From Tahibacter aquaticus (GTDB taxonomy: Bacteria; Pseudomonadota; Gammaproteobacteria; Xanthomonadales; Rhodanobacteraceae): DNA of 64,000 bases. The notes beneath the pieces were generated by a model that did not search any database, had not been told where the DNA came from, and saw only the letters and a program-made list of their open reading frames with translations. The stretch spans positions 62,001-126,000 of the forward strand of contig NZ_SNZH01000006.1 of assembly GCF_004363655.1 (NCBI RefSeq), read 5' to 3'. The position numbers and the translations under genes are program-made. Positions 4,050-47,357 of this stretch are shown piece by piece; the stretch's first letter is position 1; each line of letters starts with the position of its first letter.

Positions 4050-5246
4050 ATGAAGACTGCTTATCTCGTGCGTGCAATGGCCGTGCTTGTGCTCGGCGGG
4101 TTCAGCGCCTCGCTGCTCGCCGCCCATCCGAATTGCGCCGTGTCCGGCGGCACCTTGCTGAAATGGCCGGCGACCGGCCCGGCAGTATGGGAAATGTGCT
4201 GGCTGGCGCCGGGCAGCAGCTCGGGCGTACAGGGCTCGGGCCTGGAAGTGCGCGATGTCTATTACAAGGGCATCCAGGTGGCCAAGCGCTTTCATTCGCC
4301 GATCCTGTTTGCCGAATACCGCAATGGTTCCGGCGGCGACTGCTACCGCGACTGGAAGGACGCCAACGCGAAATTCGCCGCGACCCCGGCCGTGCGCAAC
4401 CAGCTCGGCGTGCCCGGCAGCTTCCTCGCCACGACGACCTGCGACATCTCCAAGGATGCGACGGCTTCGCACGGCACCTGTCCCTTCAGCAACCTGTCGC
4501 CGAATCCCTTCGTCAATGCCGACTGCCAGGCCAGCGGCGTGGCGATCGAAGACCGCACCAATGCGCTCAACCCGGAGGACAGCTATGTACTGCTGACCAC
4601 GCAGTACTCGGCCAGCTGGTACCAGTACGCCAGCCGTATCGCGTTCTATGCCAACGGCGACATCAATCCCGAATTCGGCTACGGCAACTCCAACGGCACC
4701 TACAACAACGTCACCCACTGGCATCACAACTACTGGCGCCTGGACTTCGACATCGCCGGTGCCGCGCACGACCAGATCTCCGCCAACGGCGTGCTCAAGC
4801 CAACGGAATTCACCGACCTGCGCAGCCTGACCGGCGGTCCCGGCGGCGGACCGACCTACTGGGAAATCAGCGACAGCGTGCAGAACTTCGGTTTCCGCAT
4901 CACCTCGGGTGCTGGCGACTACACGCCGGTGAACGAATCCGGCCGCGGGCTGCATACCGTCGACGTGATCGGCACCAAGTTCATCAACAACGAGTTTTCC
5001 GACAAGGCCGACAACAACCTCAGCGATTGCCAGATGGTTGCGTCCAATCTTGCCAACGGCGAGAGCCTCGCCGATACCGACGTGGTGTTCTACTACACGG
5101 CGAGCGTGCGCGATTCCACGTCGAACAACTGGCCTACCTCGGGCAGTGGCGCGATTCCGCAGGATTCGATGGTCTGCAAGAAAGTGGGGCCGCTGATCAC
5201 GCCGGTCGGCGACTGGCCGCTGTTCCGCGACACCTTCGAGCCGTGA
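4050..5246 (+). CDS. Secreted copper amine oxidase-like protein with degenerate active site
   Basis: About 398 residues from the ATG at 4050; the frame extends to a GTG at 4023, but only the later start gives a clean signal peptide ending near LLAA. The core pattern follows the copper amine oxidase catalytic domain: a Tyr in WYQYASR at about residue 191, where the family has the cofactor-forming Asn-Tyr-Asp/Glu, then HWHHNYWRLDFDI near residues 223-235, matching the His-x-His copper ligands followed by RLDFD. Two features are odd. The residues flanking the Tyr are Trp and Gln instead of Asn and Asp/Glu, and near the C-terminus (PVGDWPLF) the third copper His of the family is not apparent. The protein ends in RDTFEP, a variant of the C-terminal tail found in five other exported proteins here. 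It may be an active variant or an inactive binding protein. Confidence 0.65.
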   Translation: MKTAYLVRAMAVLVLGGFSASLLAAHPNCAVSGGTLLKWPATGPAVWEMCWLAPGSSSGVQGSGLEVRDVYYKGIQVAKRFHSPILFAEYRNGSGGDCYRDWKDANAKFAATPAVRNQLGVPGSFLATTTCDISKDATASHGTCPFSNLSPNPFVNADCQASGVAIEDRTNALNPEDSYVLLTTQYSASWYQYASRIAFYANGDINPEFGYGNSNGTYNNVTHWHHNYWRLDFDIAGAAHDQISANGVLKPTEFTDLRSLTGGPGGGPTYWEISDSVQNFGFRITSGAGDYTPVNESGRGLHTVDVIGTKFINNEFSDKADNNLSDCQMVASNLANGESLADTDVVFYYTASVRDSTSNNWPTSGSGAIPQDSMVCKKVGPLITPVGDWPLFRDTFEP

Positions 5247-5387
5247 TCGTGCTCGACACGGTATTTCGCTGGTGAGATAAAGCCACACGTTGAAACGCAA
5301 TCGAAATGGTCGCCCGGCTGCCGATGTCGGCCGGGCGATGCCAGGGATTTTGCCGGGGCAGGGCGCAGATACCTATCAGAGGCAGCG

Positions 5388-7439
5388 ATGAACAATCGGA
5401 CCCGAGCGTGTTTACTGGTTCTGGCGCTGGGGGCGCCGGCAATTCCTGTAGTGGCCAGCACTGCCACGCAACAGGTGGCAGCGATGCAGACCTGGACTGC
5501 GCAGGGTGGCGACCTCGGCTTTATCTGGAACGAGGATCTGCTGCGTGATCTGGGCGTCGGCATCAAGGACGCCGTACGTGTCGGCGACGCTGACAGCCGT
5601 GGCTTCATCGCCGTGCCGCTGCGCGACCAGACCGGTCTTAGCTTTGCCGTCAGCAGTACCAATTTCGACCATTTCACCGCCGGCAGGCTGACCCTGCGCG
5701 GCGGCTTCACGCTGAAGACCCCGGATGGGGAGATTTCCCTGGTTGATGCGTCGCTGCGTCCGCGCGCCGGCGATGCGCAGACCCTGGACCTGGTCGATGC
5801 CGCCGGCAAGACCTGGTTCTATCTGGACAAGCTGATGTATTCGGTGGCCGAGGATGGCCGCCGTATCGATGTGCAGACCATGGACCTGCGCCTGCATCCG
5901 GATCTCGCCAAGCGTCTGGGCAAGCCGCAGGTCGCCGACTGGGCCGTGGCGCAGCTGCGCATGAACCTGGATGTGCGCGCCCAGGACGGCCAGTACATCC
6001 GCATCGTGCAGGCCGAACCGGTCTGGCCGGGCACGCCGGTGCCAGACGTGCCGAATGCCACCTACGAAGCCGACGTCTTCATGCTCAGCTTCAATGCACA
6101 GTATTCGCGCTGTACCAGTTCGCTGAGCAATACCAACCTGACCTGCGACGGCCCGGCCGGCACAACCGACGGCTATGCGGTGTTCACGCCGTCTTCTACA
6201 CTCAGAAACAATGTAAACAATGGAACGGCGGCGGAAACGGTAGCCGGCGATCCCAACGGCACCAGCGCGGCACTGTATACCGCCGACGTGGCCTGGTACC
6301 GCAAGTTCACCGGTTCGCGTCCGCCCTACGACAACGACCAGCATCCGAACCTGGTCTGGAACCTGTACCGCGTGCAGAACGGCCGCATCGAGCAGATCGG
6401 ACGCTCGGGCATGAAGCATGCCTTCGTCACCACCAACGGCGGCTGTTCCGCCGGCCCGGGCAGCGGCGGCAGCACCGGCGCGATTCTCGGCCGTTCCTGC
6501 TCCGATACCTACGGCACCGGCAACAACGACAGCAACGGCGACCTCGGTCCGCGCAGCGAACTGGTGCCGGCGACCGGCGAGTGGGGCCGCTGCGGTTCCA
6601 TCTTCGATCCGAACTGCGACCTGACCGCCGACGGCAACGGCAACGGCAACTACAGCCAGCGCATGATCGTGCGCGAATCGCAGCTGGCTGCCGGCGGAAC
6701 CTACTATTTCGAGTCCTGGTACATCGTCCGCGACGACGTGAACCCCTACAACACCATGGCCTCGCGTCCGGTCACTTTCAGTTACTCGGGCAGCGGCCCC
6801 TGGTCCATCGGCAATGGCTCGCCGATGCTGCTGGGACCGGTGATCAACCGCTGGATCAGTCCGACGACGACCGACCCGAACAAGAAAAATGTGGAAATTG
6901 CCAGCAAGGAAGGGCATACCCGCGTCGCAGTCTCGGCGACCGACCTGGGCGGCGGCCAGTGGCGCTACGACTACGCCGTGATGAACGTGGATTTTGCCCG
7001 CGCCGCGACCCAGGGCACCGGCAAGTACAGCGACGATACCGATCCCACGCAGCGCTTCCGCGTCATCCACAACATGGGTTACGACCGTTTCAGCGTACCG
7101 CTGCCGGTGGGCGTCAGCGCGGCGTCGTTCGAGTTCAACGACGGCGATCTGGACACGGCAAACAATTGGACCGCCGCCGTCGCTGACGGCAGCCTGACGT
7201 GGACGGCTCCGGTCAATCCGACACCGGCCGTCGGTGTGCCGGCGGTGCTCAACCCGCTGAGCTGGGGCACGCTGTATCGCTTCTCCTTCGTCAGCAGCCA
7301 GTCGCCGGGCGCGGCCGAGGTTGCCCTGCATGTGGCCCAGTCAGGCAGCCCGGACGCGTATACCGCGTCCAGTCTTGCCCCGGCAGCGCCCGTGTCGGAG
7401 GAGATCTTCGCGGACGATTTCCAGTTGGCTACGCCCTGA
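5388..7439 (+). CDS. Secreted protein of unknown function with C-terminal IFADDF tail
   Basis: 683 residues from an ATG preceded by a GAGGCAG ribosome-binding site. The first 23 residues form a signal peptide (hydrophobic core ending PVVAS). I do not recognise a family. The first 230 residues look beta-rich and globular. The middle has Cys-containing, Gly/Asn-rich stretches (GGCSAGPGSGG, RSCSDTYG, LGPRSEL), followed by segments with aromatic residues typical of extracellular beta-sandwich proteins (TYYFESWYIV, WRYDYAVMNVDF). The last 15 residues contain EEIFADDFQ, the same terminal pattern seen in the amine-oxidase-like protein just upstream and in the M14 peptidases. It lies 141 bases after the upstream gene in the same direction and may be co-transcribed with it. 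Function unknown; an extracellular or surface-bound role is the only inference I would make. Confidence 0.8.
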   Translation: MNNRTRACLLVLALGAPAIPVVASTATQQVAAMQTWTAQGGDLGFIWNEDLLRDLGVGIKDAVRVGDADSRGFIAVPLRDQTGLSFAVSSTNFDHFTAGRLTLRGGFTLKTPDGEISLVDASLRPRAGDAQTLDLVDAAGKTWFYLDKLMYSVAEDGRRIDVQTMDLRLHPDLAKRLGKPQVADWAVAQLRMNLDVRAQDGQYIRIVQAEPVWPGTPVPDVPNATYEADVFMLSFNAQYSRCTSSLSNTNLTCDGPAGTTDGYAVFTPSSTLRNNVNNGTAAETVAGDPNGTSAALYTADVAWYRKFTGSRPPYDNDQHPNLVWNLYRVQNGRIEQIGRSGMKHAFVTTNGGCSAGPGSGGSTGAILGRSCSDTYGTGNNDSNGDLGPRSELVPATGEWGRCGSIFDPNCDLTADGNGNGNYSQRMIVRESQLAAGGTYYFESWYIVRDDVNPYNTMASRPVTFSYSGSGPWSIGNGSPMLLGPVINRWISPTTTDPNKKNVEIASKEGHTRVAVSATDLGGGQWRYDYAVMNVDFARAATQGTGKYSDDTDPTQRFRVIHNMGYDRFSVPLPVGVSAASFEFNDGDLDTANNWTAAVADGSLTWTAPVNPTPAVGVPAVLNPLSWGTLYRFSFVSSQSPGAAEVALHVAQSGSPDAYTASSLAPAAPVSEEIFADDFQLATP

Positions 7440-7493
7440 GCCGATAGGCGGCAAAGACCTGCCGTGGCGGTCCAGGCATGGATCGCCGCGGTA

Positions 7494-9890
7494 TTACGGC
7501 TGCGGCGGCAGCAGCCGCAACTGATGCACCGTCGTACCCGGCAACAGCGGCGTCGGCTTGCCCTGCACCCAATCCGCATGACCCGCGCCATGGAACGGCG
7601 ACAGGGGATGCCCGCTCTGTCCGCCTGGCATCATCAGATAGCTTTCCGCCTCGTGCCCTGGCGCAATCGCAAAGCGCTGCGACGCACCGAAATCCGGCCC
7701 CTGTACACGCGGCATATTGCTGTCGCCGGGCAGTGCCTCGGCCGGCATGTCGAGCCAGCGGCCGAGGAAGCCCGGCAGCGCGCGGGACAGGGGATGACGG
7801 ATGCGGGCGACATTGCGGCTGCCCCAGCTGGCCCGGGCCAGCGGCGTGCCGTCCTGAGTCAGTGCGGCCACCGTGCTGCGCGCCGCGGCCAGCAGCAGTG
7901 CGTTCCAGTCGGCGTGCTGCGAGGCCAGCAGGTGTAGCGGCTTTTGTTGCAGCAATGTCCACACGGTTGCTTCGTAGCTTTGTGCGGGCGGCAGCTCGAA
8001 TTCGCTGTAGTGCTGCTTGACCAGAGCCTCGAACGGCGCCAGCACGGCGGCGATGGTCTGCTGGCGGAATTCCCGCACCAGGGTGTAATCGACCGCATCG
8101 ACGCCGGCGCGGCCGCTCCAGCGCGCACTCAGGCGCTTGAGTTCGGCCAGATCCGCGTCGTCGTTGGCGGCCAGCGTCTGCGCCAATAGCGCATGCCAGG
8201 GGGCGAGGAATTCGGCGCGGTCGTCCAGCTGTACCGCCAGCAGGTCGGCCGGGGCGAATTGCGTGCGTGCGAGCAGGTCGTCGCGGATCTGGCGCTGGCG
8301 TGCGCCCAGGTCGTAGCCGCCATCGCCCTGCAGGGCGAGCCAGTCGCCGTCGATGGTGCGTGCATTGGCGCTCCACAGGCGTGCGTTCGGCGGATCGAGC
8401 AGGCGCGGATAGTCGGCCACGTCGACCCAGCCCGACCAGCCTTTGCCGTCTTCGCTCCAGTCCGCCGGCTGGCTGGCATCGAAACCCTGGCGCCGCGGCA
8501 GCGCATTGCCGGTCAGGGTCCAGCCGATATGGCCGGCGCTGTCGCCGACCACGAAATTCTGTACTGGCATGCCCATGGTCGGCGCGATCGCCAGCGCCTG
8601 CGTGACATCGCGCGCGGTTTCCAGATGCAGCAATTGCAGATTGAGCGCGCGCGGCTGATGCGCCGTCCAGGCCAGCGCCAGCGGCGTGCCGTCGACATCG
8701 CGCGCGGTGATCGGACCCCAGCGTGTTTCGTCGATCAGCAGGGTTTCGCCAGGTGCGCTGCCGCTGCGCAGCACTTCCGCATGGCGCTGCAGTTTTTCCC
8801 AGCCCTGCGGCGTGCGGTAGCGCGTCGGATCGGCCGGGTCGATCTGTACGCGCACCCAGTCGGTCCAGTCGCCGTAGGAATTGGTAAAGCCCCAGGCGAT
8901 ATGGCCGTTGCTGCCGGCGACCAGGGCTGGCGTGCCGGGCAGGGTGAGTCCGTTCAGATCGACCGTGCCGCCGGCCTGGGTCGGGTCGGGATAGCGCAGC
9001 CGCGCGCGATACCAGATATTCGGCACGCGCAAGGTCAGATGCATATCGTCGGCGACCAGGGCTGCGCCGTTGCCGGTCAGGCTGCCGGCGACAGCGAAAT
9101 TATTGCTGCCGGGTAACTGGCCGACTACGTCGTCGTCCAGCCTGGCCACGGCTGTTGTCTGTGCCGGCGTGGCGGTGGGCAGGCGGCGCAGATCGATCAC
9201 CTCGGGCCCGGGCAGTGCCGCGGCCGGCAACACTTCGCCACGCAGCGGCGCATCCCAGGGCGAGCCGGGCTGGATCAGGAAGTCGTACAGCGGCGGCGGC
9301 ACGCTGGCCTTGAGCCGTGCCAGGTTCAGTTCGCGCTTGTTGGCGCCGTCGCGGTTCAGGTCGAAATACATGGCGTAGATGACCAGGGCCGAGTCTTCCC
9401 GCGTCCAGGCTGCCGGGGACTGGCGCAGCAGCAGGTATTCCCAGGGGCGTACGCGCAATTCGGCCAGGCCGGCATTGGCGCCGTCGCGATACGCATCGAG
9501 CAGATCCAGCTGCTCTGCCGGCAATTGCGCCAGCGCGATGGCGGCGCGGGCGCGGAAGCGGTGCTGGCGATGGCGCCGGTCCAGCGGCAGTGCCTGGTCG
9601 CCGAACAGTTCCGCCAGCTCGCCGGCGGCGGAGCGGCGTAGCAGGTCCATCTGGAAGTAGCGTTCCTGCGCGTGCACATAGCCCAGTCCCCAGGCCAGGT
9701 CGCGGCGGTTGTCGGCGGCCAGGGTGGCGGTGCCGAGGGCATCCCGCTCGATCAGCACGGGCTTGGCTACGCCGGCGATGCTGTCGCCGTCGAGCTTGGC
9801 CAGGCTGCCCCAGAGCAACACGCCGGCGCCGAGCAGCAGGGCAACAATCAGTACCACAAGATATTTCAGCAGGCGGCGTAGCAGTCGCAT
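7494..9890 (-). CDS. Penicillin acylase-family (S45) N-terminal nucleophile hydrolase
   Basis: 798 residues. An N-terminal hydrophobic segment (about residues 9-28) acts as a signal peptide or membrane anchor, so the enzyme works in the periplasm. The alpha-subunit-like part contains GYVHAQERYFQMDLLRR, typical of the family. The chain then reaches GQLPGSNNFAVAG, where the Ser at about residue 262, after a Gly, is the expected autocatalytic cleavage site and nucleophile of the beta subunit. Downstream signatures include ADDMHL and GLTLPGTPALVAGSNG. The family removes acyl groups from amides (beta-lactams, acyl-homoserine lactones or other N-acyl compounds); the substrate cannot be predicted. 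It is convergent with the upstream secreted protein gene and stands alone on its strand. Confidence 0.9.
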   Translation of the reverse strand: MRLLRRLLKYLVVLIVALLLGAGVLLWGSLAKLDGDSIAGVAKPVLIERDALGTATLAADNRRDLAWGLGYVHAQERYFQMDLLRRSAAGELAELFGDQALPLDRRHRQHRFRARAAIALAQLPAEQLDLLDAYRDGANAGLAELRVRPWEYLLLRQSPAAWTREDSALVIYAMYFDLNRDGANKRELNLARLKASVPPPLYDFLIQPGSPWDAPLRGEVLPAAALPGPEVIDLRRLPTATPAQTTAVARLDDDVVGQLPGSNNFAVAGSLTGNGAALVADDMHLTLRVPNIWYRARLRYPDPTQAGGTVDLNGLTLPGTPALVAGSNGHIAWGFTNSYGDWTDWVRVQIDPADPTRYRTPQGWEKLQRHAEVLRSGSAPGETLLIDETRWGPITARDVDGTPLALAWTAHQPRALNLQLLHLETARDVTQALAIAPTMGMPVQNFVVGDSAGHIGWTLTGNALPRRQGFDASQPADWSEDGKGWSGWVDVADYPRLLDPPNARLWSANARTIDGDWLALQGDGGYDLGARQRQIRDDLLARTQFAPADLLAVQLDDRAEFLAPWHALLAQTLAANDDADLAELKRLSARWSGRAGVDAVDYTLVREFRQQTIAAVLAPFEALVKQHYSEFELPPAQSYEATVWTLLQQKPLHLLASQHADWNALLLAAARSTVAALTQDGTPLARASWGSRNVARIRHPLSRALPGFLGRWLDMPAEALPGDSNMPRVQGPDFGASQRFAIAPGHEAESYLMMPGGQSGHPLSPFHGAGHADWVQGKPTPLLPGTTVHQLRLLPPQP

Positions 9891-10016
9891 GGCGGCAGGG
9901 ATGGCTCGTACAGGGAAGAGGGGCGGCGAACACGGGGCCGGCGCCGCCGGATCTTACGGTGTCCGCATTGCTGCGCGGATATGCCGCGACCATTTCGATC
10001 GTGGCGTGCGCCGCAA

Positions 10017-10973
10017 CTATTGCTGCGTGCGCTGCCGCTGGCGTGCCTGCGCTGCCACCAGGGCGTCGTCGGCCACGCCGACGGCTGCGTCCAGGCCGAC
10101 GCGGTCGGTGCGCAGCAGCGGCGGGCAATGCGTCAGCAGGTCGTCGATCACCGCCTGCTGCAGGCGCGTGTAATACGGCTGGTGGTGGTAGTGCAGGAAT
10201 ACCGGCACATCGAACGGCTTGAAGCCTGGCACGATGCGCACCGGAATGGACGGATCGAGCAGATGCACCGGCACGACGGCGCGGCCTATGCCCTCGGCCA
10301 CCGCGTCGATCAGCCCGTAGATATCGTCGAAATACGCGCGTTCCATGCGCGGCACGGTGGAACCGGTCTGGCTGAGGAAAAACTTCTCGGTGAAATTGTC
10401 GCGCGGATCATGGTCGATGAAGCAGCTGTCGCGCATCGAGAACTGCGAGGACTCGATCAGCACGTCGCGCTCGATGCCCAGCTGCACGTTCTCGATGCCG
10501 GCACGCTCGCATTCGGACAAACTAATACAGAAATCCACTTTGCCGTCGATCAGCATCTCGTGCAGTACCTCCACTTCGGCCTTGGCCGCATGGCAGGAAA
10601 GCTTGGGGTTGGCGCGGAGCACTGGGCCCAGCGCCGGCAGTACGATCGAGCGCAGGGCCGAGGAAAAGGTCACGATGCGGAAGAAGCCGGCGAGCTGGCC
10701 GGTGCGTTCGCCGACCAGGCTGGCCAGCAGTTCGGTCTCCTGGTGTTCCAGCGCGGCGCCGTAGCGCTGCAGGGTGCGGCCGCTCTCGGTCAGTTCCAGC
10801 GCGCCGTACTGGCGGATGAGCAAGGATTGGCCAAGCAGCGACTCGAGGTTCTGGATACGCTTGGTCAGTGCTGGCTGGGTGATATGCAACAGGTCGGCTG
10901 CTCGCGAGAAGTTCAGCTCGCGGGCGAGGACCAGGAACGACTCCAGCAATGGCGACGACAGCGGCAGGCGCAT
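10017..10973 (-). CDS. LysR-family transcriptional regulator
   Basis: 318 residues, the usual LysR length. The N-terminus is the winged helix-turn-helix DNA-binding domain (LARELNFSRAADLLHITQPA, then TKRIQNLESLLG). The rest follows the type-2 periplasmic-binding-like effector domain, including a segment with GRAVVPVHLL. LysR proteins usually sense a small molecule and regulate themselves and a divergent target. Here the divergent neighbour is the ECF sigma factor gene at 11107, with a palindrome of LysR type between them, so regulation of the sigma-kinase-CHAT cluster is possible. The penicillin acylase gene lies downstream in the same direction, 126 bases away, and is an alternative target. 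The ligand is not predictable. Confidence 0.9.
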   Translation of the reverse strand: MRLPLSSPLLESFLVLARELNFSRAADLLHITQPALTKRIQNLESLLGQSLLIRQYGALELTESGRTLQRYGAALEHQETELLASLVGERTGQLAGFFRIVTFSSALRSIVLPALGPVLRANPKLSCHAAKAEVEVLHEMLIDGKVDFCISLSECERAGIENVQLGIERDVLIESSQFSMRDSCFIDHDPRDNFTEKFFLSQTGSTVPRMERAYFDDIYGLIDAVAEGIGRAVVPVHLLDPSIPVRIVPGFKPFDVPVFLHYHHQPYYTRLQQAVIDDLLTHCPPLLRTDRVGLDAAVGVADDALVAAQARQRQRTQQ

Positions 10974-11008
10974 CGATTTGGCAGTCCTTGCATGAACTTC
11001 CGCACACT

Positions 11009-25005: not shown

Positions 25006-25590
25006 ATGCTGGTTACCCTGATCATCATCGGCGTCACTGTCGCCGTGTCCATCATTGCCTGGGGCAATCCGCGCCTGCAGCAGCAGCTGATCCTCTGGCC
25101 GCCGGCGGTGAAGCGCAAGAAGGAATACTGGCGCCTGCTGTCGTATGGACTGATCCATGCCGACGGCATGCATCTATTCTTCAACATGTTCACTATGTTC
25201 TTTTTCGGCCGGAACATGGAGATCGTGCTAGGCCGCCTGATCGGGCCGCTGGGCCTGCCGCTGCTCTACCTGGGTGGGCTGGTGGTGTCGATACTGCCCA
25301 GCTACCTCAAGCACCAGAACGACCCGAACTATCGCAGTCTGGGCGCTTCCGGCGCCGTCTCGGCGGTGCTGTTCGCGTTCATCCTGGTAGCACCGGGTTC
25401 CACGCTCGCGTTCTTCTTCATCCCCATGCCGGCGATCGTGTTCGGCGTGATCTATCTCGCCTATACCTGGTACATGGATCGCCAGTCCCAGGACAACATC
25501 AACCACAGCGCGCACTTGTGGGGCGCCGGTTTCGGCGTGCTGTTCATGGCTCTGCTGGAGCCGCGCCTGATTGGCGAATTCCTGCGCTGA
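25006..25590 (+). CDS. Rhomboid-family intramembrane serine protease
   Basis: 194 residues from the ATG at 25006; the frame continues upstream into the fold-back repeat, but that part is repeat-derived and not part of the protein. Six hydrophobic segments are present. Catalytic elements are LGASGAVSA (nucleophile Ser) and NHSAHLWGAGFG (His), with HLFFNMFTMFFFG as the conserved Asn/His region of the second helix. The enzyme cleaves substrate proteins within or close to the membrane. The N-terminus lacks an extra cytoplasmic domain, the simplest architecture. The natural substrate is unknown. Confidence 0.92.
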   Translation: MLVTLIIIGVTVAVSIIAWGNPRLQQQLILWPPAVKRKKEYWRLLSYGLIHADGMHLFFNMFTMFFFGRNMEIVLGRLIGPLGLPLLYLGGLVVSILPSYLKHQNDPNYRSLGASGAVSAVLFAFILVAPGSTLAFFFIPMPAIVFGVIYLAYTWYMDRQSQDNINHSAHLWGAGFGVLFMALLEPRLIGEFLR

Positions 25591-25881
25591 CCCGCGGCTA
25601 CCCTGGTGCAGGGCGGGCACGCCGGCCGACCATCTGCTGGCGTTCTTTGTCGCCCCATGCAACGGTGCTATGAGCCATCGTCGCCGACGAAAATACGGCA
25701 CAGCGCTCAGGCGCAATGCCGTGGCAGTTGCCGACCGAAGGGGCGGCTGCTGTCTGCCTCAGGGCGGCAGGTGTCTGCAAGCCTGCTCCGGCTCGAGTCG
25801 ATGGGGCCGCTTTAGCATCGATAACGGTCCCATCGCGGGCAACTCCGCGCTGGAGACACATAACCAAGTCCAAGTCCCATT

Positions 25882-26864
25882 TTGCGGCCGCCCCTGGCGG
25901 CCTGTTCCTTTGCGCCTGCGGCAGCCTTGCCGCTGGCAATGGTGGAGAAAAACCCGCTGCGGCGAACCAATCCCGCGACGGGCGCGTACCTGACCTCGTC
26001 GCCGCCGATCTGGGCGACCTACCCGTACGACACCGAGACCGGCAAATACTGGAGCGCGATGACGAATGCCGAACGCGTCGCGTCGGCGATTACCGATCCC
26101 GACCTGATCTGGTCTGGTCTGGTCTGGTCTGGACCAGCAAGCGGGTGAACAAGCAGTCAAAGAAGTTCCTCGGTCCGCCGGCCAAGGTCACGGTGAATAC
26201 GCCGGCCGGCATTGCCGGCGTCTACGACGCCCAGACCGCCGAATTCGGCGCCAGCGTGGCAGCCAACCCGGTCACTGCCGACGTGGTACTGGTCAATGAC
26301 GGCAGCGGCACCGCCACGGACGGCTGCGAAACGCCCTTCGTCAACGCTGCGGCCATCGCCGGCAAGATGGCCCTGATCGATCGCGGTACTTGTGATTTTA
26401 CGATAAAAGTAAAGAATGCGCAGGACGGAGGGGCCGTCGGCGTGATCATCGCCAACAATGCTGCGGGCCTGCCCGGCATGAGCGGTGTCGATCCGACCAT
26501 CACGATCCCTTCGCTGGGCACCACCCAGGCGGCAGGCACGGCGATGAAAGCCAATCTGCCGGCACCCGGTGTGAATGCGAAGCTGGGCGTGCAGACCGGC
26601 GCCGGTCTGGCCGGCACGCAGCAGGGCTGCGTGCGCATGTTCGCACCGAATCCGGTGCGGACCGGTTCATCGGTATCGCATTTCCATTCCGAGGACTTCC
26701 CCAACCTGCTGATGGGGCCGTCCTTGAACCGCAGCATCTTCAACAAGGTCGACCTGACCCTGCCGCTGTTCCAGGACATCGACTGGCGCACCAATCCGGA
26801 AGACACCCTGTTCATCGACGATTTCGAACCCAACCCCTGCGCGGCTTCCGCGTCGGTGCCGTAG
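25882..26864 (+). pseudogene. Broken or phase-variable PA-domain secreted protein
   Basis: Two reading frames together look like one protein. The first (to about 26107) contains YPYDTETGKYWSAMTNAERV; the second (from about 26133 to 26864) contains a protease-associated domain, with GKMALIDRGTCDFTIKVKNA, GAVGVIIANN and an end LFIDDFEPNPC. The join falls inside a (TCTGG)5 repeat; removing one unit puts both parts in one frame. The 5' end also looks incomplete: no good start or normal signal peptide is seen upstream, only a short TTG-initiated frame at 25882, so the gene may in addition be truncated. PA domains usually occur in secreted peptidases, but no catalytic domain remains here. The C-terminal tail matches that of five other exported proteins, with a few extra residues after it. 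Confidence 0.65.
26108..26132. repeat. Pentanucleotide microsatellite (TCTGG)5
   Basis: Five perfect tandem copies of TCTGG lie inside the PA-domain gene. A five-base unit changes the reading frame with each gain or loss, so slippage could switch the gene between states. Confidence 0.9.
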
Positions 26865-30078: not shown

Positions 30079-32607
30079 ATGAAGACCATTGCGACCTCGC
30101 GCCTGTGCGCGTTGCTTGTGCATTTGTGCGGCGCAGGCCTGGCGATGTCCGCCGTGGCGGCCTGGACCGAGCCCGGCGCGCTGAATCCGCGCGACCAGGC
30201 CCTGCTGGATGCGCGGCCGGCGCGGCCGCAGCCGCTGGCGCCTCTGCACAATACGCCCTGCGTCAACGGCATGGCGGCAACCTATCCCTGTTCCAATGTG
30301 GACCTGCTTTCGTTCACGCCGGTGGCAACATTCGCCGCCACCAGCACCAACAGCCTGTGGGGCTGGACCGATCCGACCACGCAGATCGAATACGCCCTGA
30401 TCGGCGCGAACAACGGCCTGGCCATGTTCGAACTGGCCGATGCCACCCATCCCAAATACCTGGGCAAGCTGCCGACCAAGACCGGTAGCTCGGCCTGGCG
30501 CGACGTGCGCGTCTATGCCGACCATGCCTACGTGGTCAGCGACAACAACGGCAGCCACGGCCTGCAGGTGTTCGACCTGACCCGGCTGCGCGGCGTGACC
30601 ACGCCGCAGACCTTCACCGAAGACGCCTACCGGGGCGACTTCGGCCGCGGCCATACCATCGGCATCAACGAGACCACCGGCTTCGCCTACGTCGCCGGCA
30701 GCGACACCTGTCCCGCGCCGACCGCGGTCGGCGGGCTGCGCATCTACGACATCCATACGCCGGACAACCCCACTTTCGTGAGCTGCGTGGCCACCGGCGG
30801 CTATACCCACGAAAGCCAGTGCTTCAACTACCACGGTCCGGACACCCAGCACCAGGGCAAGGAAATCTGCCTGAATGCGAACGGACCTACCGACCGCCTC
30901 GCCATCGTCGACGTGACCAGCAAGGCGGCACCGGTGACCCTGTCTTCGCTGACCTGGACCGGTGCGGGCTATCCGCACCAGGCCTGGTTCACCGAAGACC
31001 AGCGCTACGCCCTGCTCAACGACGAACTCGACGAAAGCCAGTTCGGCCACAACGCCCGCACCCTGGTATTCGACCTGTCCGATCTCGATGCGCCGGTGCT
31101 GGTCGGCTACCACCAGCACGCACTCAGCGTGATCGACCACAACCTCTACGTGCATGGCCAGTACGTGTACGAGTCCAACTACGAGGCCGGCCTGCGCATC
31201 CTGCGCCTGGACAACCTGTCCCAGGCGCAGATGACCGAAGTGGCCTATTTCGACGTCTACCCGGCCAGCAACAACGCCGAGTTCAATGGCAATTGGAACA
31301 ATTACCGTTTTCCTGGCAGCGGCAATGTAATCCTCACCGGCATCGACGAAGGCTTTTTCGTGGTGCAGCCGCAGCTGTGCACGCCGGTGGCGACGCCGGG
31401 CGGCTTCACCGCCACGCCGAGCGGCAACCAGCAGATCAGCCTGGGCTGGACCGGCTCGGGCAGCAGCGGCAACGTCTGGGACGTGGAGCGCGCCCAAGGC
31501 GGTTGCGCTGGTGCCTTCGCGCGCATCGGCCAGAACCTGACCACGCCGACCTTTACCGACAACACCGCCTCGGGCCTGGTCACCTACGGCTATCGCGTGG
31601 TGGAAAAGAATGCCAGCGGGCAGTGCGTATCGACCGCATCGAGCTGCGTCGAAGCCCAGACCACCGGCGCCTGCAACGCACCGCCGCTGTTCAATGGCCT
31701 GACCGGCATCACCAACGCCGGCACGGCCAGCTGCCAGTTGAACCTGGCCTGGAATGCGGCAGCACCGGCCTGTGGCGGCCCGGCCAGCTATTCGGTGTAT
31801 CGCGGCGACAGTGCTGGCTTCACGCCGGCCGCAGGCAATCGCATCGCCACCGGCGTCAGTGGCGCGAGCTATGCCGACAGCGGCGTCGCCGGCGGCGTCA
31901 ACCGCTACTACGTCGTGCGCTCCACCGACGGCGCCAACGGCGTGGAGGACGGCAATGCGATCGAACTGTCCGGTTACGCCACCGGACCGCTGACCGACGG
32001 CACCTTCGCTTCCGGTGCCGAACCGGGCGAGCCGCCGTTCGATACCTCCAGCGCGGCACCCGTGACCGAGTCCGGCAACAGCGTGCAGCACGCCGGCTGG
32101 CATACCTCGACCACACGCATCCGCAACGGCACGCAGAGCTTCTGGTCGACCTCGGCCAACAACCTGTGCGTATCACTGGTCAGCCAGAACCTCGTCCTGA
32201 CGGCCGGACAAAGCCAGCAGCTGTCGTTCTGGAGTCTGTGGGACATCGAACAAGGCTACGACGGCGGCGTTGTGGAAATCTCCACCGACAACGGCACCAG
32301 CTGGACCCGCTTGACCCCGACCGGTGGCTATCCCTCGACCATCAGCAACGGCGGCAACCTCTGCGGCATTGCCCAGGGTTCCGGCGCATTCACCGGCACC
32401 AATCACTTGACCACGTGGACCCAGTCGCAGATCAGCCTGGCGGCATATGCGGGCCAGACCGTGCAATTACGCTGGCTGTACCGCACGGACGGCGGCCAGG
32501 CGGGGCAGGGCTGGTATGTCGACGACATCAGCCTGACGCACGCACAGGTGCCGGGCATGTGCACGGGCGGGAGCGATCCGATTTTCGCGAACGGGTTTCA
32601 GCCGTAG
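30079..32607 (+). CDS. LVIVD-repeat choice-of-anchor B family secreted protein
   Basis: 842 residues with a signal peptide and GGGGAG as ribosome-binding site. Residues of about 75-430 form a repeat region of beta-propeller type with segments like GLAMFELADATHPKYLG, GLQVFDLTRLRG, GLRIYDIHTPDNPTFV, LAIVDVTSKAAPV and GLRILRLDNL; this is the LVIVD/choice-of-anchor B pattern. A fibronectin-III-like part (about 435-640) and a final beta-sandwich (about 650-830) follow. The protein ends DPIFANGFQP. The choice-of-anchor B family was named because its members carry different C-terminal sorting or anchoring signals in different bacteria, which makes the tail here of special interest. Function is not known; a surface or extracellular role is likely. 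Confidence 0.85.
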   Translation: MKTIATSRLCALLVHLCGAGLAMSAVAAWTEPGALNPRDQALLDARPARPQPLAPLHNTPCVNGMAATYPCSNVDLLSFTPVATFAATSTNSLWGWTDPTTQIEYALIGANNGLAMFELADATHPKYLGKLPTKTGSSAWRDVRVYADHAYVVSDNNGSHGLQVFDLTRLRGVTTPQTFTEDAYRGDFGRGHTIGINETTGFAYVAGSDTCPAPTAVGGLRIYDIHTPDNPTFVSCVATGGYTHESQCFNYHGPDTQHQGKEICLNANGPTDRLAIVDVTSKAAPVTLSSLTWTGAGYPHQAWFTEDQRYALLNDELDESQFGHNARTLVFDLSDLDAPVLVGYHQHALSVIDHNLYVHGQYVYESNYEAGLRILRLDNLSQAQMTEVAYFDVYPASNNAEFNGNWNNYRFPGSGNVILTGIDEGFFVVQPQLCTPVATPGGFTATPSGNQQISLGWTGSGSSGNVWDVERAQGGCAGAFARIGQNLTTPTFTDNTASGLVTYGYRVVEKNASGQCVSTASSCVEAQTTGACNAPPLFNGLTGITNAGTASCQLNLAWNAAAPACGGPASYSVYRGDSAGFTPAAGNRIATGVSGASYADSGVAGGVNRYYVVRSTDGANGVEDGNAIELSGYATGPLTDGTFASGAEPGEPPFDTSSAAPVTESGNSVQHAGWHTSTTRIRNGTQSFWSTSANNLCVSLVSQNLVLTAGQSQQLSFWSLWDIEQGYDGGVVEISTDNGTSWTRLTPTGGYPSTISNGGNLCGIAQGSGAFTGTNHLTTWTQSQISLAAYAGQTVQLRWLYRTDGGQAGQGWYVDDISLTHAQVPGMCTGGSDPIFANGFQP

Positions 32608-37164: not shown

Positions 37165-37194
37165 TGTATTGACAGCTATGCCTGTGGCTGCGGT

Positions 37195-40366: not shown

Positions 40367-40368
40367 TA

Positions 40369-42261: not shown

Positions 42262-42278
42262 AGCGCAGGCTCGCATCC

Positions 42279-42312
42279 GCAGCCCCAGGCTCGTTGCAGA
42301 GCCTGGGGCTGC
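42279..42312. terminator. Hairpin between convergent hutH and M14 genes
   Basis: A perfect 14-pair stem, GCAGCCCCAGGCTC and GAGCCTGGGGCTGC, with a six-base loop, lies between the two convergent stop codons. No T-run follows on either strand, so it may work as a shared rho-assisted end. Confidence 0.65.
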
Positions 42313-42325
42313 AGGAGAGCGGGGC

Positions 42326-44713
42326 TTACTCGAAGCCGTTGTCGAAGATGCCGTCTGCCACCGCGCGGCAGGCCGTGCCACCGGCTTCGACGCGGATGTT
42401 GTCCAGCGACCAGCCTTCGCGCACTTCGCTGGAATCGCTGGTCAGGCGGAAGCGCAGCTTCACCGCGCCCTGGTTCGCCGCCGCAGGCAGGGCGATGCGC
42501 TGGTTCTGCCAGGTGCTGCCGCCGTCGCAGCGATACAGCTCGGCCCAGCTCGGCGTGCCGGCGCTGGCATTGGTGCTGATTTCCACAATGCCGAAATCGT
42601 AGGTGGCCTCGGTCACGCACTTGTGATCGAAGCTCAGCACGGCGTCGTCGTAGCCGGTGAAGTTCAGCAGTGGCGAGGTCAGGCTGAGGTTGATGTTGTT
42701 GGCGTAATTGCCGGCGGGGCTGTCGGTCCAGACCTTGGTGGCGTTGCCGGCGACGTTGTTGGCCACGCCCCAGGGCGATTGCGCAGTCCAGCCCGGATTG
42801 GCGCCTTCGGCGTTGTCGCTGAACACGGTGCAGTTCGGCGCCAGCTGGAAGTTGCGCACGATATCGCTGCCGCCGCTCAGGGCAAGGCCGGCGATGCGCT
42901 CGGTGATATGCCCCGGCGCGCTGACTTCCACATCGACCGTGCCGGCGCGCAGGCGCTTGCTGTAGGCGCCGGCCGCATCGGCCTGTACGGTGGCTGTGCC
43001 GAGCTTGATACTGGCCGCCAGCGGCACGCTGCTTTGTGCATCGGTGACCGTGCCGTGCAGCGTGGCGATTTCATTCGCCTGGGCGACTTCGACGAATACC
43101 GCATTGGGCGGACCGGCCGCGCCGTTCAGGTCGACGCCCTGCACGTAGACCAGGTGCTTGCCGCTGGCCATACCGGTCGTGGCGATATCGGCGCGCACGG
43201 CTTCGCTGCCGCTGTTGAAGCTGCCGTCGCTGGCGGTCATGGCTTGCGACACCACGCCCGGCTCCCAGGGCAGGGCGTCGATGTAGACACGCGCCGAGGC
43301 CACGTTCTGCGTGGTCGGCACCGGCGGCGCGCCGCTCTGCGGCTGCGGCGTGAGGTTCAGGCGCGAATCGTCGACGCGGCCCTCGATGCGAACCGTGTCG
43401 CCGGCGACGACCAGGTCGGGCGTGGCCGTGAGTTGCAGCGCGTCGGGCCCGAACGGCAGTTTGTACGGCGCCGACAAGGTGCGCGAGGCGTAGCGCAGCG
43501 CCGCGACGTTGAGGGGATAGGTGCTGGCCTCGAAACTACCGCAGTTTTCGAAGAAGGCGGTGCCCAGTTCGATCGTATAGGCTGGCACGCCCAGCGGGCC
43601 GTAGGCGCTGTCGTCGGTGGTGCCGCTGGTCGGGTACAGGCCTACCGACTGCTGCGGGTCGTAGTTGTTGAACCAGGCGATGCGCCGGCCGAGGATTTCC
43701 AGCGCGGCCGCGTTCGGTGCCAGCGTGGTGGTGTCGCCCCAGGGCCACAGCACCAGCTGCGAGAAACTGTGGATGTCCAGGAACAGGCCCTGGGTGGTGT
43801 CGGGCGCCGGCGTGGTCAGGTCGTCCGGGCGCAGGTCGGGAAATATACTTTGCACATAGTTTACGACCGCCTGGGTTTCCGGCTCGGACGCCGACGTCGC
43901 GCCGCGGTAGGTTTCGTCGCATTGCGAGCTGCTGGCGCCGGGGCCTCCCCAGTGGAACGGGTAGTTGCGGTTGAGGTCGGCGCCGCGGGAGTTGCTGGTG
44001 GTGCCGCAATAGGCGGTGTTGACGTTCTTGCGCCAGGACAGGCCGGTTTCGGCTTTCTTGCGCCCGTCCGGGTTGGACTGCAGCAGCAGGTGGAATTCGT
44101 TGTGGTCGAGCAGCCAGGTGGCTTCCGCGTCGGTGCCGTAGTTGTTGACCAGCCATTCGGCGAAGCGCGTATTGAGTTCGGCCGTGGTGTATTCGCGCGC
44201 GTGGATCGCCGTCATCGCGAATAGCTTGGGCTTGGGCCCGGGAATGGCCGAATTGGTCAGCTTCAGCACGACCAGGTCGTATCCCGGGTTGCCGCCGGCG
44301 GTGACCTTTTCCCAGGTGTCGCCGATGTCGATCTTGCTGGCGAGGTTGGGCCGCGCGGCGATCAGCGCGTCCATGCTGGCCTGGGTTTCTTCCACCGTGC
44401 GATAGCAGGCAAAGCCGGGAATGCTGCGCAGGGAATTGCCGGAGGTCTGCGCCTGTACGGCCTGGGTCGCTGCCAGTTCGACGGTCGCGTCCACATGCTG
44501 GTCCTTGAGCCAGCTCATCTGCGTGGCGTCGGCCTCGACCATCACCACGCCCTTGTGCCGGTCCACGCGCATATGGCCGAACTTCTCGCTCATGCGCGCA
44601 ATCAGCGCCGCATCGCGCGTATGCACCGAAACCACCTGCAGCGTGTCGCCGGCGGCGTATGCCGCGGTGCTGGCCAGGGCCAGCAGGATGCTTGTCACTA
44701 TCGTCTTGCGCAT
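42326..44713 (-). CDS. Secreted M14 zinc carboxypeptidase, copy 1
   Basis: 795 residues with a signal peptide (LLALASTAAYAA) and GAGGG ribosome-binding site. A propeptide-like part of about 90 residues comes first. The peptidase M14 domain carries the zinc motif HARE (His about 171, Glu about 174), LLLQSNPDGRKK, DLNRNYPFHWGG, a third His in DIHSFSQ, and the catalytic Glu in YTIELGTAFFENC. A beta domain with carboxypeptidase-regulatory-like repeats (TLHGTVTDAQSS) and a final jelly-roll-like domain follow. The protein ends DGIFDNGFE. It removes C-terminal residues from peptides outside the cell. Its neighbour at 44967 is a close copy with the same domain order, showing a recent tandem duplication. 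Confidence 0.93.
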   Translation of the reverse strand: MRKTIVTSILLALASTAAYAAGDTLQVVSVHTRDAALIARMSEKFGHMRVDRHKGVVMVEADATQMSWLKDQHVDATVELAATQAVQAQTSGNSLRSIPGFACYRTVEETQASMDALIAARPNLASKIDIGDTWEKVTAGGNPGYDLVVLKLTNSAIPGPKPKLFAMTAIHAREYTTAELNTRFAEWLVNNYGTDAEATWLLDHNEFHLLLQSNPDGRKKAETGLSWRKNVNTAYCGTTSNSRGADLNRNYPFHWGGPGASSSQCDETYRGATSASEPETQAVVNYVQSIFPDLRPDDLTTPAPDTTQGLFLDIHSFSQLVLWPWGDTTTLAPNAAALEILGRRIAWFNNYDPQQSVGLYPTSGTTDDSAYGPLGVPAYTIELGTAFFENCGSFEASTYPLNVAALRYASRTLSAPYKLPFGPDALQLTATPDLVVAGDTVRIEGRVDDSRLNLTPQPQSGAPPVPTTQNVASARVYIDALPWEPGVVSQAMTASDGSFNSGSEAVRADIATTGMASGKHLVYVQGVDLNGAAGPPNAVFVEVAQANEIATLHGTVTDAQSSVPLAASIKLGTATVQADAAGAYSKRLRAGTVDVEVSAPGHITERIAGLALSGGSDIVRNFQLAPNCTVFSDNAEGANPGWTAQSPWGVANNVAGNATKVWTDSPAGNYANNINLSLTSPLLNFTGYDDAVLSFDHKCVTEATYDFGIVEISTNASAGTPSWAELYRCDGGSTWQNQRIALPAAANQGAVKLRFRLTSDSSEVREGWSLDNIRVEAGGTACRAVADGIFDNGFE

Positions 44714-44918
44714 TGCTTTTCCCTCACCCGGAAGCTGTGGAGCGTAGAAGCTGTGCGGCTGCCGTGCGCGTTTACGGGCCGCAAAAAAATGTGACGAGTT
44801 TCACGAGTTTTCACTTGCTGTTTTTTGCACGGCTGTAGCCGGAGCGCGCCATCCTGCGTCTGCCCTAGCGCTGCGGCAGGCGGCAGGGCGGACGGCGGAG
44901 TACGGCCTGCGGCACGGG

Positions 44919-44942
44919 GCGCCGCACGACTCCGTGCGGCGC
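44919..44942. terminator. Hairpin between the two M14 genes
   Basis: Arms GCGCCGCACG and CGTGCGGCGC pair perfectly with a four-base loop, 24 bases downstream of the stop codon of M14 copy 2. There is no T-run. Confidence 0.55.
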
Positions 44943-44966
44943 TTGTCCTGCGTGAACCGTGACGAC

Positions 44967-47357
44967 TTATTCGAAGTCGTCGGCAAAAATGCCGTCGCCG
45001 CTGGCGCGGCAGGCCGCGCCGCCCGCTTCCAGCCGGATAGTGTCGATCGACCAGCCTTCGCGCGCGCTGCCGCTGTCGCTGGTCAGGCGGAAGCGCAGTT
45101 TGAGCGCCGGCTGGTTGTTGGCGCCGGCAGGCAGGGCGATATGCTGGGTCTGCCAGCTGGGCAGGTTGCTGCAGCGGTAGATTTCGCTCCAGCTCGGCGT
45201 GGCTGCGCCGGGATTTGTGCTGAATTCCACAATGCCGAAATCGTAGCCAGCCTCGGTCAGGCATTTGTGGCTGAAGCTCAGCACCGCGTCTTCGTAGCCG
45301 CTCAGGTTCAGCGTGGGCGAGGTCAGGCTGGTATTGACGTTGTTGGCGTAGTTGCCGGCAGGGCTGTCGGTCCAGACCTTGGTGGCGTTGCCGGCGACGT
45401 TGTTCGCAACACCCCAGGGCGACTGCGCAGTCCAGCCGGGGTTGGCGCCTTCGACATCGTCGCTGAATACGCTGCAATTGGGTGAGAGGGAAAAGTCGCG
45501 CACCGTCTCGCTGCCGCCGGCGAGGTTCAGCCCGCTGACGCGCTCGGTCATGTAGCCGGGCGCGCTGGCCTGTATGTCGACGCTGCCGCCGCGCAGGCGC
45601 TTGGCGTAGTTGCCCGCCGCATCGGACTGCACGCTGGCGCTGCCGATCTTCAGCGTCGCCGCCAGTGGCGCAGCGCTCTGGCTGTCGCGCACCGTGCCGC
45701 GCAGGCGGGCGATCTCCGCCGCCGGCGCCACCTCGACGAATACCGCGTTCGGCGCGCCGGCGGCGCTGCCGCTGTCGACGCCCTGTACGTAGACCAGATG
45801 GCGTCCGTTGGAAAGTCCGCCGGTGGACAAATCCAGTTGTACCGCCTCGCTGCCGCTGTTGAACGCACCGTCGCTGGCGGCCATGGCCTCGCCGGCAGTG
45901 CCGCTGCTCCAGGGCAGACTGTCGACATAGGCCCTGGCCGAGGCGATGGTCTGCGTCGCTGGCACCGGCGGTGCGCCGCTCTGCGGCTGCGGCGTGAGGT
46001 TCAGGCGCGAATCGTCGACGCGGGCCTCGATGCGCACGTTTTCGCCGATGGCGACCAGGTCGGGCGTGGCAGAAATCTGCGTGGTATCCGGGCCGAACGG
46101 CAGTTTGTACGGCGCCTGCAGAATGCGCGCGCCGTAGCGCAGCGCGGCGATGTTGACCGGATAGGTGCTGGCCTCGAAGCTGGCACAGTTCTCGAAGAAG
46201 GCCGTGCCCAGCTCGATGCTGAGGCCCGGCACGCCGAGCTGGCCGTAGGCCGTGTCGGCGGTGGTGCCGGTCGTGGGATACAGGCCGATGATCTGCATCG
46301 GCCGGTAGCCGTTGAACCAGGCCATGCGCCGGCCGATCATCTCCATGCCGGGGCCGTTCGGCGCGACCGCCGTGGTGTCGCCCCAGGCCCACAGCACCAG
46401 CTGCGAGAAACTGTGGATATCCATGAACAGGCCCTGGGTGGTATCCGGCGCCGGCGTGGTGGTGTCGTCCGGGCGCAGGTCCGGAAATATACTTTGCACA
46501 TAGTTCACGACGGACTGGGTTTCCGGTTCGGAACCGGCGCTGGGGCCGCGATAGGTTTCGTCGCAGGGGGCGGCGCTGGAGCCGCCCGCGCCCCAGTGGA
46601 ACGGGTAGTTGCGGTTCAGATCGGCGCCGCGGCTGTTGCTGGTGGCGCCGCAGTAGCTGGTGTTGACGTTCTTGCGCCAGGACAGGCCGGTTTCGGCCTG
46701 CTTGCGTCCGTCCGGATTGGACTGCAGCAGCAGGTGGAATTCGTTATTGTCCAGCAGCCAGGTGGCTTCGGCATCGGTGCCGTAGTTGTTGACCAGCCAT
46801 TCGGCGAAGCGGGTGTTGAGTTCGGCCGTGGTGTACTCGCGGGCATGGATCGCCGTCATCAGGAACATCTTGGGCTTGGGGCCGGGGATGGCATTGTTGG
46901 TCAGCTTGAGCACCGTCAGGTCGTAGCCTGGGTTGCCGCCAGCGGTGACCTTGTCCCACGTATCGCCGATGTCGATCTGGCTGGCCAGCTCCGGATGGGC
47001 GGCGACCAGGGCGTTCACTGTCGCCTGGGTTTCTTCCACCGTGCGATAGCAGGCGAAGCCGGGAATGCTCTTGAGCGAGCGTCCGCTGCTTTGTGCCTGC
47101 AGCAGCTCGGTCGCGACTTTCTCCGGGCGCAGCACGGCGCCTTGCGCCTGCAGCCAGGTGCGCTGGGCCGCATCGGCTTCGACCGTGACCTGGCCCTTGT
47201 CCGTATCGACGTGCAGATGGCCGAATTTTTCGCCCATGCGGGCGATCAGTGCCGGATCGCGCGTCTGCACGCTGAGCACCTGTATCTCGCTGTCGGCGGC
47301 CTGCAGCGGAGCGGCAAGGGCGGCCAGCAAGGCACAGACTAGGATTCGCAACGGCAT
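44967..47357 (-). CDS. Secreted M14 zinc carboxypeptidase, copy 2
   Basis: 796 residues from the ATG at 47357 (MPLRILVCALLAALAAPLQA is the signal peptide); the frame extends 16 codons upstream. The M14 domain has the same motifs as copy 1: HARE zinc site, LLLQSNPDGRKQ, DLNRNYPFHWGA, DIHSFSQ and IELGTAFFENC. The C-terminal domains (ending in the block SAREGWSIDTIRLEAGG) are also parallel, and the chain ends DGIFADDFE. The two copies are near identical over long blocks but differ in the propeptide, so the substrates may differ. The gene is upstream of copy 1 on the same strand with 253 bases between them. The region upstream carries the promoter and, further on, a fold-back repeat. Confidence 0.93.
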   Translation of the reverse strand: MPLRILVCALLAALAAPLQAADSEIQVLSVQTRDPALIARMGEKFGHLHVDTDKGQVTVEADAAQRTWLQAQGAVLRPEKVATELLQAQSSGRSLKSIPGFACYRTVEETQATVNALVAAHPELASQIDIGDTWDKVTAGGNPGYDLTVLKLTNNAIPGPKPKMFLMTAIHAREYTTAELNTRFAEWLVNNYGTDAEATWLLDNNEFHLLLQSNPDGRKQAETGLSWRKNVNTSYCGATSNSRGADLNRNYPFHWGAGGSSAAPCDETYRGPSAGSEPETQSVVNYVQSIFPDLRPDDTTTPAPDTTQGLFMDIHSFSQLVLWAWGDTTAVAPNGPGMEMIGRRMAWFNGYRPMQIIGLYPTTGTTADTAYGQLGVPGLSIELGTAFFENCASFEASTYPVNIAALRYGARILQAPYKLPFGPDTTQISATPDLVAIGENVRIEARVDDSRLNLTPQPQSGAPPVPATQTIASARAYVDSLPWSSGTAGEAMAASDGAFNSGSEAVQLDLSTGGLSNGRHLVYVQGVDSGSAAGAPNAVFVEVAPAAEIARLRGTVRDSQSAAPLAATLKIGSASVQSDAAGNYAKRLRGGSVDIQASAPGYMTERVSGLNLAGGSETVRDFSLSPNCSVFSDDVEGANPGWTAQSPWGVANNVAGNATKVWTDSPAGNYANNVNTSLTSPTLNLSGYEDAVLSFSHKCLTEAGYDFGIVEFSTNPGAATPSWSEIYRCSNLPSWQTQHIALPAGANNQPALKLRFRLTSDSGSAREGWSIDTIRLEAGGAACRASGDGIFADDFE

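Follow-up and report, generated by a model that had tools for sequence, protein, structure and literature searches.

A short C-terminal tail recurs on six proteins encoded in a 64,000-nucleotide stretch of the Tahibacter aquaticus genome (hereafter the window; contig positions 62001-126000 of a 7.27-Mb genome). The tail reads (I/L/V)-F-x-(D/N)-(mostly G)-F-(E/Q/D) followed by zero to three residues, is about eight residues long, and is, with near certainty, a real tag that is general in part of the order to which the source organism belongs. Judged from sequence, it very probably serves as a signal for targeting or processing exported proteins. Across the order, the abundance of the tag was strongly associated with a second type II secretion system (T2SS) whose GspC protein carries a PDZ domain, and GspC of this type is the candidate reader of the tail.

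We counted the motif [ILVM]F.[DN].F[EQD]P? at protein ends in a sample of the source genome covering 1.595 Mb (22% of the genome; 1132 genes, 432,760 residues), in which gene calls, starts, and signal peptides came from simple home-made scripts with a lenient signal-peptide predictor. The motif formed the exact C-terminus of 18 proteins, compared with 0.02 expected from its internal rate, and lay at most 12 residues from the end in 24 proteins. Only four copies were found elsewhere, and the reversed motif was at none of the C-termini of the 1132 genes. The C-terminal enrichment anticipated in the preliminary description of this DNA was thus borne out, and the pattern is not equally common inside proteins. 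The four internal copies are in long proteins (G000 C6:185962, C2:60121, C3:180054, and C8:60300), and behind the copy at C8:60300 the protein continues with a linker-like stretch and further sequence, in a fusion-like arrangement. Genome-wide counts were made with a degenerate DNA pattern (tail plus stop codon), with the reversed pattern as the control and the excess defined as the count minus the control. The whole source genome had 71 such matches against 4 for the reversed pattern, i.e., about 67 above the control.

The consensus was derived from 53 tagged proteins of five genomes, namely the source genome and stretches of G021, G056, G041, and G032, many of these stretches having been picked for high tag density (GNNN are genome labels; fNN and gNN below are arbitrary working labels for families and genera). 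In this set, the search pattern fixed the two F, the D/N, and the final E/Q/D, left positions −1 (I/L/V) and −3 (D) free, and allowed seven residues, among them G, at +3. The consensus consisted of D at −3 (25/53), any residue, [ILV] (52/53), F (53), any residue, [DN] (53), G (43), F (53), and a last residue that was E, Q, or D in 39, 9, and 5 proteins, respectively. The stop codon followed directly in 38 proteins, P in 7, and N in 3, and the remainder had other short ends.

A DNA-level repeat or mobile element inserted at gene ends could also produce recurring tails, and the repetition itself, though nothing more, speaks for this explanation. However, 49 of the 53 tag-encoding 18-mers were distinct, with TTC and TTT, GAG and GAA, and all four Gly codons in use, and G026 encodes the same peptide with AT-rich codons. 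Since synonymous codons vary freely in the tags, selection acts on the peptide. A DNA repeat is refuted for the sampled genes, and its chance of being the general explanation is negligible.

In agreement with the preliminary description, the membrane helix and basic end of known sorting tags are missing. A helix-like stretch within the last 50 residues was present in 1/53 tagged proteins, and at least two K/R within the last eight residues likewise in 1/53. A Cys occurred somewhere in the last 30 residues of 15/53 proteins; the motif itself has no Cys, and Gly-Gly is not part of the consensus.

A signal-peptide-like start was found in 50 of the 53 tagged proteins compared with 472 among 1015 other proteins (200 residues or longer) under the same lenient test, which argues against an equal occurrence in cytoplasmic proteins. 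When the tails were cut off, 48 tagged proteins (at least 100 residues, five genomes) fell into 29 BLAST clusters. The carriers include M14 carboxypeptidase, choice-of-anchor B, Kelch, YncE-like propeller, Vps10/PKD, delta-60 repeat, ELWxxDGT repeat, RCC1, endonuclease/phosphatase, trypsin-like, and glucose/sorbosone dehydrogenase proteins, and several tagged proteins have no assigned family. Some gave partial matches to NCBIfam models for rhombosortase-, myxosortase-, or type IX secretion system (T9SS)-dependent M36 peptidases or for choice-of-anchor J proteins, all below cut-off; among models named by sorting system, only choice-of-anchor B exceeded its cut-off in tagged proteins. The names of these models hint that relatives in other organisms may carry different sorting tags at their ends. 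No best-scoring NCBIfam stretch covered the tail in the six window proteins and nine further tagged proteins, and no best-scoring Pfam stretch covered it in the tagged proteins scanned.

The M14 carboxypeptidases illustrate how the tail behaves within one family. Homologues of the protein at 42326-44713 (E ≤ 1e-30) were found in nine of 62 hand-picked genomes, that is, in 8/8 tag-rich genomes (defined below) and in 1/54 others (G102). Twelve of the 13 homologues carry the tag or a close variant of it at the C-terminus, in some cases followed by a short trailer, and the tail is kept whether the frame ends after the catalytic part (565-666 residues) or continues into further domains. The lone tagless homologue is L241. 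Because the G102 copy terminates in LFKSGFEN, a wider tag pattern was devised and applied to 12 hand-picked genomes.

These results bear on whether the tail is a structural end cap or a part of one shared terminal domain with no role in trafficking. A MAM-like domain precedes the tail in several tagged proteins, as such a cap would have it. Yet the tail-less proteins form many clusters, Kelch, RCC1, delta-60 repeat, PKD, glucose dehydrogenase-like, and M14 proteins are all tagged, the M14 homologues retain the tail behind different domains, and a structural role does not predict the patchy spread among genomes. Either is therefore highly improbable, and the check for a single homologous terminal domain came out negative. 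The preliminary description had called the six window proteins unrelated. This was too broad for the window, where the two M14 enzymes are paralogues (74% identity in the alignment) that share the MAM-like domain with the protein at 30079-32607, and it was right in substance beyond the window, as the clusters indicate.

The spread of the tag was evaluated in a first set of 31 genomes and a second, partly overlapping set of 121 genomes of the order, and was patchy in both. We called a genome tag-rich when its excess over the reversed control was at least 15 and its count at least 1.8 times the control, thresholds that were set after the counts were known. Tags in other genomes are DNA pattern matches, confirmed as the ends of exported proteins in the M14-homologue and five-genome stretches only; in G102, this confirmation concerns one protein. 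ParC of the source genome is 91-92% identical to its counterparts in Tahibacter caeni, Tahibacter harae, and one MAG titled Lysobacteraceae, which agrees with placement in Tahibacter. The eight genomes of the source genus, including the source genome, had 28-72 matches each, and most other genera of its family were at background. Families f3, f4, f5, and f12 were tag-rich in nearly all samples, with G048 (f4) just under the threshold; f9 was mostly tag-rich, f2 was so in a single genus, and counts in f10 and f8 were low or mixed. A stricter pattern applied outside the order gave at most four matches in each of 138 genomes; the same pattern yields just 13 in the source genome, so tag-poor genomes may exist beyond the order. 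A coding stretch for FADGFEYG, mostly one per genome and present in many gammaproteobacterial families, also fits the strict pattern without a stop codon; this resembles a segment of a single conserved protein rather than a C-terminus.

We screened 46 hand-picked genomes (21 tag-rich and 25 tag-poor) for the secretin GspD using TIGR02517. Two type II secretins were present in 21/21 tag-rich genomes, one of those in G128 being a fragment. The two T2SS loci were told apart by gene order and homology: an Xps-like operon runs from gspE to gspN followed by gspD, and a second locus has gspC-gspD-gspE with gspF, often near rho, trxA, and an RNA helicase gene. Sorting the GspD copies by TIGR02517 score was rejected, as it misplaced the Xps-like copies of f2, which homology and gene order corrected. 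The GspC-like protein of the Xps-like operon ends in a charged, coiled-coil-like stretch and gave no Pfam match. GspC of the second locus, encoded beside gspD, consists of T2SSC (PF11356) followed by PDZ_2 (PF13180), and, searched against the PDB, its alignment finds OutC, PulC, and further GspC chains. The PDZ-type GspC of the source genome passes TIGR01713 with 108.5 bits over a cut-off of 101.6. In a tree, GspC groups broadly by family, which suits old inheritance and repeated loss. The second locus (L209 and similar loci) is gspC-gspD-gspE, with or without gspF, and has no recognised pseudopilin genes alongside. Tagged genes were not visibly clustered at secretion loci; 3 of the 41 loci listed hold one in rough gene calls that missed some gsp genes.

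A 25-row alignment of second-locus GspC was then run against the 121 genomes. Clear matches (E ≤ 8.5e-40) were obtained in 65, the match in G119 covering little more than half of the model; the other genomes had no match or short PDZ matches only, and a distant relative in G072 (1.6e-25) was counted as absent. PDZ-type GspC was present in 41 of the 44 tag-rich genomes compared with 24 of the 77 others, leaving three tag-rich genomes without it (G063, G073, and G123) and 53 tag-poor genomes without it. The Fisher value for this table is 6e-12 and ignores kinship; when GspC labels were shuffled within the five families holding both states, a partial correction for kinship, the observed value was reached 3 times in 100,000. 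The split was complete in f1, with excesses of 39, 39, 53, and 67 in four genomes with GspC and −4 to 7 in 16 without. In f2, the excess was 54 in the one genome with GspC and −3 to 4 in 19 without, and in f9 it was 7 to 95 in 18 with GspC, the two lacking it being G036 (1) and the fragmented G123 (61). The values for f8 were 7 and 15 with GspC and −2 to 17 in 18 genomes without, and f10 ranged from −5 to 19 in 20 genomes, all of which have GspC. Among 14 genomes outside the 121, with tag counts taken from the 31-genome set, GspC was found in 6/7 tag-rich genomes (two matches partial or in pieces) and 0/7 tag-poor ones; six of these seven tag-rich genomes belong to the source genus and therefore add little independent phylogeny. 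Incomplete assembly may account for the tag-rich genomes without GspC G063 (90% complete) and G123 (460 contigs, no full GspD), as it may for G005 (680 contigs) of the 14-genome set. The preliminary description had suggested testing for co-occurrence with one transporter or protease family; the association with PDZ-type T2SS is strong in the 121 genomes, and f8 and f10 hold exceptions to it.

In the mechanism that we propose, the N-terminal signal peptide would bring the protein to the periplasm via Sec, a step strongly indicated by sequence. After folding, the exposed C-terminal h-F-x-[DN]-G-F-E would be recognised. As the co-occurrence suggests, the reader would be the second T2SS (gspC-gspD-gspE and gspF), whose GspC ends in a PDZ domain, and it is a further guess that the PDZ domain does the reading. 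The protein would then cross the outer membrane and be released or retained at the surface. On the strength of the co-occurrence, a linear C-terminal secretion or surface-sorting signal read by the PDZ-type T2SS is the best supported of the explanations considered, at about even odds. Direct binding of the tail by the PDZ domain of GspC is a tentative and somewhat doubtful proposal. The PDZ fold binds C-terminal peptides, and classical PDZ ligands have a hydrophobic end. The preliminary description had suggested a role in secretion, attachment, or processing; this general part survived the checks described above, with recognition, cleavage, and anchoring being predictions, and that description named no machine.

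Several observations weigh against reading by the PDZ-type T2SS. The residues before the stop codon (E, Q, D, P, and N) are unlike the hydrophobic end of classical PDZ ligands, and the four internal motif copies of the source genome are in proteins without a terminal tag. At least two full GspD copies are also present in some tag-poor genomes (f10 g21, G087, G072, and G017). In the part of the source genome read, no near-full pseudopilin genes beyond the Xps-like set were found, pilin-like matches reaching at most 33.5 bits. The PDZ loop (NGk..G) was tried as a divider of tagged and untagged genomes and rejected: with 16 more GspC, it proved to be a trait of the lineages f8 and f10 regardless of the tag. 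With the wider pattern, G073 (13 matches, 2 in the control) and G102 (16 matches, 0 in the control), both of f8, are tagged, and both lack PDZ-type GspC and a second full GspD (the latter checked in 14 hand-picked genomes). Conversely, 12/12 f10 g21 genomes and G087 carry GspC with an excess of only −1 to 11, and the wider pattern, applied in this group to G027 and G087 only, found one match each. In f10 g48, GspC and tags occur together, with 14 and 20 wide-pattern matches in G075 and G080 against 0 and 1 in the control. Other genes may also have been lost in the same lineages as GspC. The exceptions in f8 and f10 imply that the tag can outlive or precede the machine in certain lineages or, alternatively, that a different factor reads it.

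Such a factor is quite possible and deserves real weight: a different protein, e.g., a periplasmic protease or transferase, would read the tail and anchor the protein at the surface, and the T2SS would share its distribution through joint loss. The tagged G073 and G102 without a second T2SS and the f10 g21 genomes with a second T2SS and few or no tags fit this explanation, and Gram-negative C-terminal tags can have dedicated enzymes, as described for rhombosortase (PMC6219818) and myxosortase (PMC11980579). Against it, the tail offers no obvious cleavage handle, having neither helix nor basic end nor a consensus Cys or Gly-Gly. Rhombosortase itself was rejected as the tail reader on a profile search of the 121 genomes and the source genome, other enzymes not being searched for. 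It exceeded the cut-off of 84 bits in nine of the 121 genomes (G064, G030, G102, G057, G068, G116, G112, G127, and G015), none of which has PDZ-type GspC, and the best match in the source genome was 47.1 bits. Two f9 genomes with GspC, G044 (82.7 bits) and G118 (82.1 bits), were less than 2 bits under the cut-off. Since rhombosortase exceeded the cut-off only where PDZ-type GspC is absent, the two sorting routes may be alternatives.

Alternatively, the tail could be a signal for quality control or degradation in the periplasm, or could aid folding, akin to the C-terminal peptides recognised by HtrA-type PDZ proteases. The tail is short, C-terminal, and aromatic, and HtrA-type PDZ domains resemble the GspC PDZ. 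However, the carriers are enzymes and repeat proteins of many families with no sign of short life, and PDZ matches of DegP/Deg-like length are also present in tagless genomes, so we regard this explanation as improbable.

If the tail is tied to one PDZ-type T2SS and portable, the question of a linear signal would become testable by simple reporter fusions, and bacteria with two T2SS would sort their cargo between the two according to whether it bears the tail. Such a tail would further flag, across a large bacterial order, several dozen proteins per genome as secreted or located at the surface, several of them without known family. Side by side, two features of Tahibacter are worth recording: 9/21 of its tags end in Gln compared with 0/32 in the stretches of the four other genomes, and its GspC PDZ has INN where nearly all other aligned GspC show NG after N. 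This is a possible co-change, seen in one lineage only.

The coordinates of the six tagged proteins of the window and their tails are listed in the table. All six tails that the preliminary description had reported are present at their stop codons, four of them exact or extended by one P and those ending at 7439 and 26864 with a trailer. The tail at 5246, previously regarded as a weaker variant, is genuine, since the G056 homologue of this protein terminates in LFADGFE. Signal peptides are clear by inspection in all but the PA-domain remnant, for which a start was sought and none was recognisable. The protein at 4050-5246 had no Pfam or NCBIfam match, and scans of 5484-7439 against both likewise gave no family. 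The remnant at 25716-26864 gave partial M36-model matches of 103-127 bits, well below whole-protein cut-offs. Beside it lies a rhomboid-type protease gene (25006-25590, + strand), which matched the rhombosortase model with 43.1 bits at 25084-25548, below its 84-bit cut-off. The MAM-like domain of the protein at 30079-32607 was assigned by PF20773; no homologue bearing another anchor was found outside the order, the source genome being the one match among 140 genomes. A structure predicted for the M14 pair from a two-row alignment had a mean predicted local distance difference test score of 34.5 and did not yield the conformation of the tail.

Table 1 Tagged proteins of the window and the positions of their C-terminal tails.
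Position	Strand	Feature	Supporting match or signal peptide
4050..5246	+	Exported protein, 398 residues, tagged, without assigned family	Signal peptide MKTAYLVRAMAVLVLGGFSASLLAA
5220..5246	+	Tag LFRDTFEP and stop
5388..7439	+	Exported protein, 683 residues, tagged, without assigned family	Signal peptide MNNRTRACLLVLALGAPAIPVVAS
7404..7439	+	Tag IFADDFQ, trailer LATP, stop
25716..26864	+	Degenerate PA-domain remnant of M36-type peptidase, tag and 10-residue trailer kept	PF02225, E 4.3e-19
26808..26864	+	Tag LFIDDFEP, trailer NPCAASASVP, stop
30079..32607	+	Choice-of-anchor B protein with MAM-like domain, 842 residues, tagged	TIGR04312, 451 bits (cut-off 100)
32581..32607	+	Tag IFANGFQP and stop
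42326..44713	-	M14 zinc carboxypeptidase with CarboxypepD_reg and MAM-like domains, 795 residues, tagged	PF00246, 1e-50
42326..42349	-	Tag IFDNGFE and stop
44967..47357	-	Second M14 zinc carboxypeptidase, tagged	PF00246, 1.1e-45; signal peptide MPLRILVCALLAALAAPLQAA
44967..44990	-	Tag IFADDFE and stop

A description of the tail was not found in the open-licence papers searched. Among known systems, the type IX signal, from another phylum, is a folded domain some 70-100 residues long, and PEP-CTERM combines its motif with a helix and a basic end. The tail resembles both in being C-terminal and in occurring on many different exported proteins. Unlike a type IX domain, its conserved part comprises about eight residues and the sequence before it is variable (type IX and PEP-CTERM machinery was not searched for). 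Unlike PEP-CTERM and LPXTG, it has neither their motif nor a helix nor a basic end.

GlyGly-CTERM and MYXO-CTERM are closer, being C-terminal tags that are tied to type II secretion; each combines a hydrophobic segment with a basic end and is cut by an intramembrane protease, rhombosortase and myxosortase, respectively (PMC6219818, PMC11980579). With GlyGly-CTERM, the tail shares its C-terminal position, its occurrence on different exported gammaproteobacterial proteins, and a possible link to type II secretion (for GlyGly-CTERM, PMC6219818), and NCBIfam models named for GlyGly-CTERM partly match some tagged proteins below cut-off. Unlike GlyGly-CTERM, it lacks Gly-Gly, the hydrophobic helix, and the basic end. 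As with MYXO-CTERM, dozens of proteins per genome are tagged and their type II export is predicted (for MYXO-CTERM, PMC11980579), but the invariant Cys, helix, and Arg-rich end of MYXO-CTERM are missing.

The pairs EpsC-VesB and OutC-PelI offer a further parallel, as exported substrates with a PDZ-type GspC as the suspected reader (PMC12369372, PMC7949064). According to these two papers, the signal is a structural feature of the folded domain that varies by substrate, and the same papers, together with PMC11981180, recognise no common linear signal among type II substrates. An address label of the kind described here may thus not yet have been recognised for type II secretion machines. It is conceivable, though rather unlikely, that the tail is the first linear, portable T2SS secretion signal, an octapeptide for which the PDZ domain of a dedicated GspC would be the reader, and which would lead to the export of folded periplasmic proteins. 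In contrast to the substrates of EpsC and OutC, the proteins described here have in common a single linear terminal motif, which is shared by dozens of different proteins.

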